This document shows, piece by piece, positions 44,270 to 48,840 of a stretch of DNA of 64,000 nt. Position numbers and translations under genes: made by a program. The notes under the pieces were generated by a model, which worked only from the letters and a program-made list of their open reading frames with translations, had not been told where the DNA came from and did no database searches. The stretch covers positions 62,001-126,000 of the forward strand of contig JAKVAZ010000002.1 in the NCBI GenBank assembly GCA_022447225.1, written 5' to 3'. Position 1 is the first letter of the stretch, and every line of letters starts with the position of its first letter. This stretch comes from Fuerstiella sp. (GTDB lineage: Bacteria; Planctomycetota; Planctomycetia; Planctomycetales; Planctomycetaceae).

Positions 44270-45316
44270 TCACTCCCTGCTTTTGCGAATCAACTGAAAT
44301 GGTCCGGTCCTGATCTTCGGTGACCTGGATGCGCGCCAGCTAAGAACTTTGTCCGGGCGATCACTGTAAATCCCGTCGGCCCCGGCGTCCTGAACAAGCC
44401 AGTCCAGCAGCTGATCGACTGATTTCGCAGATTTTTTCAGCTGGTCTGTAGGTGCGGTCCGGACATGTACCTGCATTGCATGCGCATGAGAGAGACGAAT
44501 CACGTCTGTGAAGACCGGCTCCGTGTTTTTTCCCTTGGTCATTCCGGAGATCACACCATCGACAGAGATCCCCAGTCCGTCTGCGACTCGAGCATACTCT
44601 CGAATCTTTTGTTCGGTTGGAGGGGTCCTGCAAAGCTGAATCAGCGGCAGGCGGCATTTGAGGTCAATTCGCAGTCGACGCAATTCTTTTTCGTCAAAAC
44701 ACTGCAGATAAATCAGATGATCCTCACCGGCCGAATCCGCTGCATTCAGAACTTTGAGTACGGAGCCGGCAACGTCAAACTGTTCAGCTCGATGGCGAGC
44801 AGGTTCTCTGAGTTCGATGCAGAGGCCGGTGGCAGTTCGTCGGGAATGGTCCAGACCACGAATGAGTTCCACGTGTTCCCGCAGGGTGGCAATCTGAAAA
44901 CGGCCCTGTCCTGCAGGGAATCCTGAAGAACCTGCGTGATGAGACTGCTTCCGCACATTCAGCCGGCGAAGTTCCTCAAGCGTGAAGTCAAACACGTACC
45001 ATCGACGGTCATCCCGCAGCCTGTCAGGAAACACGTCAGCTACATCAGTCACCGGATCAAGAGCGATATCACGGAGGACAACCGGCACGTTATCCTTCGA
45101 CAGCACGCACTTCAGTTCGATGTAGTCTGCTTTCAGGGCATGAGCATATGCAGCGGCTTCCGTGGTGTGTTCCGGCAAGTATCCTGAAGCACCTCCACGA
45201 GCAATCACAACCGGCCAGGAGCCGGCAGACTCAGTCGATACGGCCTTTGTTGACTGTCCGTAAGCAGAATTCAGAATAATCAGATATACAGAGACCAGCA
45301 GGTTAACCCTGTTCAT
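44270..45316 (-). CDS. GlpQ-like glycerophosphodiester phosphodiesterase homologue with substituted catalytic residues
   Basis: A signal peptide (LLVSVYLIILNSAYGQ) leads into a GDPD TIM barrel that follows E. coli GlpQ closely: GASGYLPEHTTEAAAYAHAL, then KADYIEL, SKDNVPVVL, DPVTDVADVFPDRLR and FDFTLEELRRL. The catalytic residues are changed. The first His-Arg (AHRG in GlpQ) reads ARGG; the metal-binding E-x-D reads E-L-K; the second catalytic His (VVLHD) reads VVLRD. All three changes hit the active site while the scaffold is kept, so this is probably a pseudoenzyme that binds rather than hydrolyses. The start at ATG 45316 overlaps the stop of the upstream CBM9-like gene. The frame is open to 45343. 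Periplasmic location expected. Confidence 0.85.
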   Translation of the reverse strand: MNRVNLLVSVYLIILNSAYGQSTKAVSTESAGSWPVVIARGGASGYLPEHTTEAAAYAHALKADYIELKCVLSKDNVPVVLRDIALDPVTDVADVFPDRLRDDRRWYVFDFTLEELRRLNVRKQSHHAGSSGFPAGQGRFQIATLREHVELIRGLDHSRRTATGLCIELREPARHRAEQFDVAGSVLKVLNAADSAGEDHLIYLQCFDEKELRRLRIDLKCRLPLIQLCRTPPTEQKIREYARVADGLGISVDGVISGMTKGKNTEPVFTDVIRLSHAHAMQVHVRTAPTDQLKKSAKSVDQLLDWLVQDAGADGIYSDRPDKVLSWRASRSPKIRTGPFQLIRKSRE

Positions 45317-45975
45317 TTGTCGGCTAACTCCAACTGAACCCACAATGACGGGTCCCAGGCGACGGGGAATTCTTCTGTTACCGTGAGTGGCTGTTCACCC
45401 AGTTCGGTGTCGTGGACGAGACAATAGAATCCTAATTGTCGTAGTTCATCAATCTCACGATAACCGTAGAGCTGGCTTTCCGGAATCCAGACTTCCATTT
45501 CATAACCGTCTTTACGGGCATGCACTCGAAGCTGAATATGGCGGATCTGTATGTCAGATTTGACTTCCCGCTGTTGCGGAATTGACATGGGGACCACCGT
45601 CGGTTCTCCGTCGGCTGAGAGGTTGCAGGGAAAACAGGCCAGTCGATGACAGTAGCCGGTTGCCCGGTGTACGTTACCGGTTGGTCGCGTGTCGATCCAC
45701 AGTTCCACACAGTCCGAGTCTGTCGGATGATTTGGTTCCCCTGCGAGCGGTCGGGTGCGTCCACAGACAATCACACGAATGCCCAGTCCCTTTGAATTCC
45801 AGCCAATATGAACTGTTGAAAAAGACGGGCTGCCGTCCATCATCGACACATTCGGGAGCTGTGCCGAATCGGTCAGTTTCAGCAGCCGCCCTGTTTTTTT
45901 CCGTGAGGGTGTCGGACATGCCGGCACTTTCATTCGATAATCAAACAGCAGACTTGACGGGATGATCCGGTTCAC
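45313..45975 (-). CDS. CBM9-like/DOMON-type carbohydrate-binding domain protein
   Basis: This 220-residue protein resembles the CBM9-like family found in planctomycetes and other bacteria: VHIGWNSKGLGIRVIV, the DSDCVELWIDTRPTGNVHRAT block, and the ARKDGYEMEVWIPESQLYGY block with the closing GFYCLVHDTELGEQ. These form the beta sandwich that binds sugar ends in characterised CBM9 modules. No signal peptide is evident, which is odd for a carbohydrate-binding domain. It overlaps the GDPD-like gene by 4 nt (ATGA), so the two are translated together. Its own ligand and partner are unknown. Confidence 0.75.
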   Translation of the reverse strand: MNRIIPSSLLFDYRMKVPACPTPSRKKTGRLLKLTDSAQLPNVSMMDGSPSFSTVHIGWNSKGLGIRVIVCGRTRPLAGEPNHPTDSDCVELWIDTRPTGNVHRATGYCHRLACFPCNLSADGEPTVVPMSIPQQREVKSDIQIRHIQLRVHARKDGYEMEVWIPESQLYGYREIDELRQLGFYCLVHDTELGEQPLTVTEEFPVAWDPSLWVQLELADK

Positions 45976-46177: not shown

Positions 46178-47626
46178 TCAGTGTGCAGGGGGCGGGCTGT
46201 TCTGAAATGCGCGACTTCGATAGAGGAAGTCAATGATGTTACCTTCGTGCGGCTGGAGCCAGTTGAGCTGGAGTGTTTTTACTTCCCCGATATTTAACCG
46301 ATCCACATTTCTGGCATCGAGCAGTTCGTCCATGAACGATTCATCTTCTGTAATCGCGGAACAGACGAGAGTGTAACCGCACTTTTTCAAAAACTGCTCC
46401 TGAGGACATTCGACCACGGATGCGAACGGAAACATATATTCCGTGTTCGCCATTGGATCATCCGGATCACTTACATGCAGCAGGGTTGGTCGAAGAAAAT
46501 CGCAGCGTTCACTGCACACCAGTCGATCACCATCACGGTACTGAGAAGTGACTTCCGTAACGGACGGGGACTCACAGCCCTCATCAATCTGGCTGTTCAT
46601 GGCTGCAGCTGCACCCGGCAGTGTGAACGCTGCAAGCCCGGATTCGGGATCATTCATTGGTCTGGGGGCGATAGGGCCGAGTCGCTGTGCGAGTGCCTCA
46701 GCAATTTTGTCCGCATGCCGCGACACCCAGATGCCGGAGCAGCTGATACAGCTGCGACCGCTGTTCACATAAATGCTGTCGAACATTAAATCGAGATATT
46801 TTTCCCATTCGTCTACTTTGTCATCACCCAGTACGATTTTGGAGAAGCCAGGGCCGTGAGCCTGAACCCGGGGGTTTCCGTGATACTGTTCGATAGTCGC
46901 AGTACCGCCAAAAATGACCGATCGTTCGCAGGATTCAAGAACCGCACCACCAAGCTCTGCCCCTTTGTCCTGACCACCCGGATAAAGGCAAAAGGCCTCT
47001 CGAGGAACGCCGGCTTGTGCGAACGCTTCATACATTCGATAGGGTGTCCATGGTTCCGCCGGTCCGGGTTTCATTACGAGTCCGATCTGCAGTGGAATCA
47101 CTGGTAACCAAAGTGTGTGTACACCGGGACTGTTGGACGGCAGTACCCAGCCCGAGGCGTTGCAGTTTGCCTGGTAGCTGACCATGACGCCGCGATCTTC
47201 TACACCGTATCCCTGCGTCAGAATGTCTAACGGCAGACCTCGAGTCAGGGCATCGAGGATTTGTCCCATGTTTTTAAGGACAAATGCGTTTTTCGTCATA
47301 TTGAATCGACACATGTGCTCCGGCAGTCCGGTAGTTGCCGACTGCATAGTGCAGAACTCGTCCGGCGACTGAGTTCCGTTTCCCAGCGGGAGGTCTGCTT
47401 CAACATAGAATTCTGCAGCCGCTTCGCACATTCGGACCAAATCATTCACCGAAAACGAACGCAGTATTTCACGCGCCTGACGTGACTTCCGCATATCCAT
47501 TTTGATGATGCCGCCGTTGGCTTCATGCACTTTGGCGAGGGTCTCACCGGTTTCAAAATGGACGACGTCCATTTGCTGCATGCTTTCATACGGCTTACCC
47601 CAGCGGATGACGGGAATTTCGATCAT
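46178..47626 (-). CDS. Aldehyde dehydrogenase superfamily protein, LuxC-like acyl reductase candidate
   Basis: The protein has about 482 residues from ATG 47626; the frame is open to 47818 but the extension is basic and unrelated. The NAD(P)-dependent aldehyde dehydrogenase fold is visible: the Rossmann segments GWVLPSNSPGVHTLWLPVIP and VIFGGTATIEQYHGNP, and the catalytic Cys in IYVNSGRSCISC (Cys293). The usual ELGG glutamate after the nucleotide site is missing (GFSKIVLGDD), as in acylating or acyl-CoA-reducing members rather than ordinary dehydrogenases. It is encoded 122 nt downstream of an acyl-adenylating, LuxE-like enzyme on the same strand, suggesting that a carboxylic acid is activated and then reduced to the aldehyde. 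The substrate is unknown. Confidence 0.8.
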   Translation of the reverse strand: MIEIPVIRWGKPYESMQQMDVVHFETGETLAKVHEANGGIIKMDMRKSRQAREILRSFSVNDLVRMCEAAAEFYVEADLPLGNGTQSPDEFCTMQSATTGLPEHMCRFNMTKNAFVLKNMGQILDALTRGLPLDILTQGYGVEDRGVMVSYQANCNASGWVLPSNSPGVHTLWLPVIPLQIGLVMKPGPAEPWTPYRMYEAFAQAGVPREAFCLYPGGQDKGAELGGAVLESCERSVIFGGTATIEQYHGNPRVQAHGPGFSKIVLGDDKVDEWEKYLDLMFDSIYVNSGRSCISCSGIWVSRHADKIAEALAQRLGPIAPRPMNDPESGLAAFTLPGAAAAMNSQIDEGCESPSVTEVTSQYRDGDRLVCSERCDFLRPTLLHVSDPDDPMANTEYMFPFASVVECPQEQFLKKCGYTLVCSAITEDESFMDELLDARNVDRLNIGEVKTLQLNWLQPHEGNIIDFLYRSRAFQNSPPPAH

Positions 47627-47748
47627 GTTCAGTTTTCTCTGGTATGTGGATTGTGCGACGGCGTGTTTCAGTGACCGATTGTCAGGTGACCCTGTTTGTG
47701 GCGATCTGGGAGGCCGGCGAAGACAGACGTTTCTTCCGGACTGTCGGC

Positions 47749-48840
47749 TCAGTACACGCCGACAGTCGTTGTTTTGGCAAATATGTGGTACGGCCGTACT
47801 CCGCTGACTCCATCCCACGGGTATTTTTCGTGCGGTTCTTCACGTTCACCTTCATCTCGCTCCAGAAAACCTGGAACAAACAGCTCTTTGGTCATGGTAT
47901 ACAGCTTCACACGGCCTGTCTGACCATAGTCGACCACTTTGGTGTGGTCGTCAAAATCAACCACCTCCACAACTGCCCGGGGCTGTGGAGCGTAATACGT
48001 GATCTTATAGTTGTCAGCCGGGTCAAACGGTTTTCCGCAGGCGAGTCCCATCAATGTGTTTCCGTATGTCGGAGTGATGTACACATTGGGGCCAAGCAGC
48101 TCTTCGCAGGCAAAGCGATACCACTGCGGAGTAAATTCTGTTCCGCCGCAGAAGATGCCTGTGATGCCCGCTTCTTCAATACTGCTGCCTTCATCCAGTA
48201 ATCTCATTGCCAAAGCTTCCAGAAGCTTCGGTGTGGTGAACATACACTGGATGTCATTGTCTGCTCCCAGGACAGCCATTGCCTGATCAATTACGTGGCT
48301 GCTGTATTCCTGAGCTTCCGCAACCTTTCCCTTCTTCAGCAGCTTGACGACCCATCGCGGATCCAGGTCCACACAAAAGCAAATGCCGCCGCGATGCTGA
48401 GCAAGATGTTCAACGGAGAGTCTCAAACGCCGAGGGCCGGACGGACCAAGCATGAGCCAGTTGGCTCCGCGTGGAAAGGATTCGTCGGGAATGGTATCGC
48501 TAAAAATTTCGTAGTCCGTCCAGTGATCTTCCACGACCACTCGGGATTTGGGTATGCCGGTTGTTCCGCCGGTCTCAAACACATAGATAGGTTTGTCCTG
48601 AAGCGGCTGAGGTAACCAGCGACGCATTGGTCCGCCGCGCAGCCAGTCATCCTCGAACAGCGGAAATTTCCTGAGATCCTGGAAACTGTTCACATCTGTG
48701 AGCGGGTCAAAATCGAATTCTTGCTTCTTTTTCAGCCAGAACTCGCTGCCGGTATCTTCACCGAAATGCCATTGAACGGTTTCTCTTGTGTGCTGGTCAA
48801 GTGCTTCACGGTGACTGGCTGCCACAGTACTCAGGTCCAC
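47749..48840 (-). CDS. Acyl-adenylating enzyme, LuxE / phenylacetate-CoA ligase-like
   Basis: This 363-residue member of the ANL adenylating superfamily has the phosphate loop ETGGTTGIPKS (89-99) and later motifs FCGGTEFTPQWYRFACEE and ITPTYGNTLMG. It ends without the usual C-terminal CoA-ligase domain, similar to LuxE acyl-protein synthetases, which form an acyl-AMP and pass the acyl group to a partner reductase. The gene order, with the LuxC-like reductase downstream, resembles luxEC without luciferase or transferase genes. The upstream 730 bp contain a two-stem hairpin at 48909-48950. Function is inferred from fold and neighbour; the acid substrate cannot be told. Confidence 0.78.
   Translation of the reverse strand: MDLSTVAASHREALDQHTRETVQWHFGEDTGSEFWLKKKQEFDFDPLTDVNSFQDLRKFPLFEDDWLRGGPMRRWLPQPLQDKPIYVFETGGTTGIPKSRVVVEDHWTDYEIFSDTIPDESFPRGANWLMLGPSGPRRLRLSVEHLAQHRGGICFCVDLDPRWVVKLLKKGKVAEAQEYSSHVIDQAMAVLGADNDIQCMFTTPKLLEALAMRLLDEGSSIEEAGITGIFCGGTEFTPQWYRFACEELLGPNVYITPTYGNTLMGLACGKPFDPADNYKITYYAPQPRAVVEVVDFDDHTKVVDYGQTGRVKLYTMTKELFVPGFLERDEGEREEPHEKYPWDGVSGVRPYHIFAKTTTVGVY

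Follow-up and report, generated by a model that had tools for sequence, protein, structure and literature searches.

Does a GlpQ-like barrel whose catalytic residues have been replaced still act as an enzyme, is it retained for another purpose, or is it being lost? The question is raised by a gene of the GDPD family which lies in the window, the whole stretch of 64,000 nucleotides of Fuerstiella sp. DNA that was analysed, and which overlaps an upstream gene with some likeness to the carbohydrate-binding module CBM9. The reading favored here, with a probability of about 0.6, is that the product would be a GDPD inactivated not long ago, with a barrel that stayed under constraint for most of the branch; it may now have a non-catalytic role or be in early decay. 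The features referred to below are the following.

45313..45975, minus strand: "CBM9-like" gene, 220 aa, GTG start, without a signal-peptide-like start; widespread in the family (profile and alignment)
44270..45316, minus strand: GlpQ-type GDPD homologue, putative pseudoenzyme (catalytic motif lost), 348 aa from ATG 45316 (PF03009, 1ydy match, motif table)
45313..45316, minus strand: ATGA overlap of the CBM9-like stop and the GDPD start (sequence)
45257..45316, minus strand: hydrophobic, signal-peptide-like N-terminus of the GDPD, residues 1-20 (by eye; the starts of G100 and G099 are similar)
45194..45199, minus strand: first catalytic His and neighboring Arg lost, H40R and R41G (alignment, codons)
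45110..45118, minus strand: ExD metal motif changed from EQD to ELK, with E67 kept, Q68L and D69K (alignment, codons)
45071..45073, minus strand: second catalytic His lost, H82R (alignment, codons)
44807..44815, minus strand: third metal ligand E168 kept, K170R (alignment, codons)

The open frame of the GDPD gene is listed from GTG 45343, and the ATG at 45316 gives the 348-residue protein. Membership in the family is clear: PF03009 matches across the whole barrel with 100.4 bits (cut-off 23.6; profile positions 3-244 of 244), and the best PDB match is E. coli GlpQ (1ydy, E 2.6e-51), which bears out the GlpQ-like barrel of a preliminary description of this locus. The NCBIfam GlpQ equivalog PRK11143 is a near miss, at 252.1 bits for a cut-off of 254. 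E. coli GlpQ, a periplasmic glycerophosphodiester phosphodiesterase, shares with the window protein the segments GASGYLPEHT, VTDVAD.FPDR and DFTL.E, and both have a secretion-signal-like start. GlpQ is an enzyme, whereas the window protein should not be one.

The available text of PMC4926365 gives the family motif as HR(X)nEN(X)nExD(X)nHD, in which the two His residues act as acid and base and a Glu/Asp/Glu set binds the metal; Ala at any metal ligand inactivates ttGDPD, and a Lys contacts the substrate in docking. At these positions the window protein reads RG, EH, ELK and RD (E. coli GlpQ itself has EH where the motif gives EN). Aligned directly, GlpQ has HRG, EQD and HD against RGG, ELK and RD in the window. 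The replacements, numbered from the ATG and with the residue of the relatives first, are H40R, R41G, Q68L, D69K, H82R and K170R; numbers counted from the open frame are 26 higher. E67 and E168 are kept, and the Asp between them in the three-ligand set is replaced by Lys. The alignment thus confirms the three changes recorded earlier (His-Arg to Arg-Gly, second His to Arg, metal Asp to Lys) and adds two more, at the middle residue of ExD and at the usual Lys. With H, R, D and H replaced, the earlier statement that the protein is not an enzyme, in the sense of a catalytically dead GDPD, is well supported at the level of sequence, and there are strong grounds to expect that the protein does not hydrolyse glycerophosphodiesters.

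An error of assembly or sequencing could in principle produce changes that are unique to one assembly, and nothing beyond this uniqueness was found in favor of it. The codons, compared with those of the same-genus genome G100, are CGT for CAT twice, GGA for CGA, CTG for CAG and AAG for GAT, that is, clean replacements (one of them of two bases) inside an intact frame with neither a frameshift nor a stop. The contig is 231 kb long and belongs to a 33-contig assembly that is 97% complete. Given this quality and the clean codon changes, an artefact was rejected as extremely unlikely.

The relatives were collected by a protein search of 170 genomes of the same family, sampled at one genome per species. 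A GDPD homologue at E 1e-15 or better was found in 64 of them, and the other 106 had no match to the window GDPD at that threshold. Each of these 64 genomes contributed one row to the alignment; L003, L069-L074 and L034 (which coincides with L041) are further loci of places already represented and were not included. The catalytic set H, R, E, D and H is kept in 62 of the 64, the exceptions being the window and G120. E168 is retained in every row, and the Lys at position 170 is present in 61, with Arg in the window and in G120 and Met in G100. G100 and G099, the only other genomes of the genus searched, both keep H/R/E/D/H; the G100 protein is 74% identical to that of the window (74.5% in the flank comparison). 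The flanks of the locus are collinear between window and G100, hence the two GDPDs are orthologues. The "conserved non-catalytic barrel" of the preliminary description fails on these counts, since the close homologues carry the catalytic His and do not share the substitutions. Judged on the sequences compared, the dead state is lineage-specific. A scan of genome contigs from other collections gave one relative, L034 (a Planctomicrobium MAG), and a plasmid tblastn gave 65 records, all below 60% identity, the eight matches listed being annotated as genes of glpQ type; neither search gave a relative closer than those among the 170 family genomes.

The losses are concentrated in the active site. 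Fifteen columns are invariant in the 62 intact homologues, and the window changes four of them, all active-site residues; G120 changes five, four of them in the active site, and G100, compared with the 61 other intact rows, changes one of 16. Four relatives agree at 127 columns; the window differs from them at 5 of the 7 that belong to the active site and at 9 of the remaining 120 (Fisher p=1.5e-4, or 9.5e-4 when the middle ExD residue is left out). Because E67, E168 and 11 of the 15 invariant columns are kept, residual or altered chemistry is a formal possibility. A re-engineered enzyme would use the two remaining acidic metal-site residues together with the new Arg and Lys for another reaction, and it is in keeping with this idea that the replacements are basic at three sites; however, both acid/base His residues and one metal ligand are gone, the new residue set is shared by no other of the 64 rows, and nothing positive points to such an activity, which makes this proposal highly improbable.

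Whether the rest of the barrel is still under constraint was addressed with codon models. A first model with free branch times was unstable, with the sister omega at its bound, and it was replaced by one in which the two sister tips, window and G100, are given the same synonymous time; here the omega of the background branches hits its ceiling and carries little information. The window branch has an omega of 0.285 and the G100 branch one of 0.166. One shared value costs only 1.3 lnL units, and the two are therefore not significantly different. Fixing omega at 1 on the window branch is 20.2 lnL units worse; without the eight active-site codons the window-branch omega is 0.238 and omega=1 costs 23.8 lnL units. 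Assuming equal synonymous time, purifying selection is thus shown to have maintained, over most of the branch, the open frame, the start that resembles a secretion signal and the greater part of the barrel. The gene does not have the marks of a pseudogene, as its frame is intact and omega=1 is rejected, a test to which recent neutrality is invisible. The figure averages over the whole branch, and the losses may be of recent date in a gene that now evolves neutrally. By the pairwise NG86 method, dN/dS between the window and G100 copies is 0.196 in the GDPD gene and 0.091 in the CBM9-like gene.

Other measures fit some relaxation in the barrel. The tree tip of the window is about three times as long as that of its sister G100 (0.25 vs 0.077). 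Among the 12 genes for which window and G100 were compared, the GDPD has the lowest identity, 74.5%, followed by an HlyD-like gene at 75.3%, while the others lie at 79-96% (maximum 96.1%). Both the longer tip and the lower identity fit relaxation. Polarised replacements number 26 in the window and 12 in G100 (p=0.034), and 21 and 12 without the active site, which is not significant (p=0.16). Where at least 90% of the relatives agree, the window changes 17 of 73 columns, G100 7 of 74 and G120 16 of 73, against 0 of 73 in G014 and in G124 and 1 of 73 in G123; five of the 17 window changes are the motif residues H, R, Q, D and H and one is the Lys.

These figures bear on the possibility that the enzyme became dispensable and that the active site went first, by chance or by catalytic cost, in a pseudogene in the making. 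The faster evolution of the window tip and its lowest identity among the 12 genes agree with early decay, and so do the loss of the Lys in G100 as well, the lack of a match in 106 of 170 family genomes, and L001, another GDPD of the same genome with an intact motif, which could make the window GDPD redundant. Against early decay stand the rejection of omega=1 even without the active-site codons, the intact frame and hydrophobic start, and the scaffold acceleration that is not significant by polarised counts. As the full account of the locus, early decay seems unlikely, and of the rivals it is the one that deserves to be taken most seriously.

L001 is one of three PF03009 matches in the window genome; its motifs are intact and it has a long N-terminal part of membrane-like appearance by eye. 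Another lies on contig C8 (L002:1468-3168, minus strand), where a carbon-nitrogen hydrolase carries a fused GDPD domain that has Phe-Ala in place of HR and keeps ExD and HD. Its counterpart in G100 (L130) has the same Phe-Ala state and is 92% identical. The L002 protein is matched in 12 of 170 family genomes at E 1e-30, and a match over both domains is seen only in the window genome and G100.

The upstream gene was described earlier as a CBM9-like beta-sandwich. Its likeness to CBM9_1 (PF06452) is a weak profile resemblance that stays below the Pfam cut-off, with a score of 14.7 bits against 23.4 (Pfam E 0.03). Three of 22 aligned relatives match CBM9_1 at E 0.1, the best at E 0.012. Comparison by hhalign with four CBM9_1 domains of the window genome gives E 0.039 with a probability of 1.3% over 108 columns; the profile of the protein has no meaningful match in the PDB (best E 0.099), and a structure model from the single sequence, with pLDDT 31, is too poor to use. 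A distant relation to CBM9 is possible on this basis and is unproven. The conserved N-terminus (M..IVPPSLLF-like) lacks, by eye, a hydrophobic signal stretch. Five other CBM9_1 matches in the window genome, including a partial one, exceed the cut-off; the four domains compared are L161-L164 (contigs C10, C6, C6 and C16), three of which are 73-79% identical to the first.

The distribution of the upstream protein is broad. With a profile built from 22 sequences it is detected in 159 of the 170 family genomes, with one match each among the candidates scored; over the phylum it is found in 14 of 199 sampled genomes, and 10 of these 14 belong to the family of the window. It is, then, a widespread gene in its own right. 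A rough look at its surroundings, based on a simple gene caller that overlooked one or the other gene, CBM9-like or GDPD, in several loci (e.g. L070, L086 and L087), revealed no constant neighbor, and gene order differs between genera. At the 24 columns where the other 21 sequences of the alignment do not vary, the window and G120 copies show no change either. These columns are kept while the GDPD loses its active site, which indicates that the two genes are constrained independently. Being near-universal in the family and having no confident family assignment, this protein probably deserves more attention than the GDPD.

The 4-nt overlap of the two genes reported earlier is real (ATGA at 45313..45316). 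The CBM9-like gene is the immediate upstream neighbor of the GDPD in 26 of the 64 loci, and all 26 fall within a single clade of 31 rows that is supported at 100/100; in the five remaining genomes of this clade the CBM9-like match is on another contig, and the 33 rows outside it have no CBM9-like gene in the 521 to 2985 bases read upstream. Sixteen of these 26 neighboring pairs have an NTG start that overlaps the CBM9-like stop by 4 nt. It is probable that the two genes of the window are co-transcribed and translationally coupled. Examples from the family are G100 and G014 (loci L005 and L007), which have the clade, the CBM9-like neighbor and the hydrophobic start in common with the window and differ from it in that H, R, E, D and H are intact in their GDPDs (with Met for the Lys in G100).

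The preliminary description had gone further, proposing a conserved sensor or binder of glycerophosphodiesters or sugars in which a non-catalytic barrel, fused by translation to a carbohydrate-binding module, works with that module as its partner. The overlap part of this claim stands, with 16 of 26 pairs sharing the -4 start; the carbohydrate-binding part is not supported, as CBM9_1 remains below the cut-off. The ATGA overlap, the repeated adjacency and the fact that the dead state arose twice, each time beside a CBM9-like neighbor, speak for a sensor. However, H/R/E/D/H is kept in 24 of the 26 adjacent pairs, and the neighbor occurs in 159 of 170 genomes, mostly not beside this GDPD, so that it is no dedicated partner. 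A signal-peptide-like start is present on the GDPD only, and this, too, leaves a common complex unsupported. A conserved sensor pair was rejected, because most adjacent pairs retain the catalytic residues and the neighbor is a general gene of the family; the sensor model as a whole is very unlikely.

The second dead protein, that of G120, has Ala for the first His, Gly for Glu and Asp, and Gln for the second His, and its motifs read AR, GLG and QD; its locus (L120/L036) also has the CBM9-like neighbor, and its tree branch is long (1.14). In the GDPD tree the window is sister to G100 (100/100) and G120 groups with G124 and G123 (100/99). As the two dead tips fall in separate supported clades, two losses are indicated. 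The sites lost in both are the first His, the metal Asp and the second His, together with Lys to Arg and Gln to Leu. One may ask whether, in the clade that has the CBM9-like neighbor, the GlpQ barrel repeatedly turns from an enzyme into a secreted non-catalytic binder, the parallel losses on a preserved scaffold being adaptive repurposing. If this were true, the complete losses in the window and G120 and the Lys loss in G100 would be natural steps on the way from an active barrel to a dead one. The proposal is improbable.

Recent inactivation of a constrained barrel, the preferred reading, would have proceeded as follows. The ancestor would have been an ordinary secreted GlpQ-like glycerophosphodiester phosphodiesterase, and in one clade of the family its gene would have come to lie, in most cases, directly behind the widespread CBM9-like gene. 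The Lys beside the third metal ligand would have been lost either in the common ancestor of window and G100 or in both lineages (Arg in the window, Met in G100). After the split from G100, both catalytic His residues, the adjacent Arg and one of three metal ligands would have been replaced in the window lineage. The present product would be a secreted, non-hydrolysing barrel; either an anionic ligand may bind in the old phosphate pocket, which has gained positive charge through Arg and Lys, or the barrel may simply not be eroded yet. The coupling of the two genes would stem from operon history at the level of the clade rather than from a sensor complex.

The value of the locus lies in the evolutionary bracket it offers: orthologues at one collinear locus, 74% identical, of which one is intact except for the Lys and the other appears dead. 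With the second, independent loss added, one can test in which order the active site was lost and whether a binding role has been retained.

GDPD-family pseudoenzymes are already known, and the kind is not new. In the available text of PMC3178575, MPN566 of Mycoplasma pneumoniae is reported as a GlpQ paralogue which has lost motif residues and is inactive in vitro, and whose disruption gives no mutant phenotype. MPN566 and the window protein are thus both GDPD homologues with lost motif residues. In M. pneumoniae, however, an active GlpQ exists beside the paralogue MPN566, and a similar pair is reported for M. genitalium; the window protein, by contrast, has same-genus orthologues that keep the motif, and the residues replaced differ. 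The portions available of the literature on GDPD/GlpQ catalysis and on GDPD and planctomycete pseudoenzymes contained no description of the window protein.

Further upstream, at 46178-48840 on the minus strand of the window, lie a gene resembling aldehyde dehydrogenases (PF00171) and another whose AMP-binding match falls below the cut-off. The two are 95-96% identical in G100 and may, at a guess, form a pair for acyl activation and reduction.
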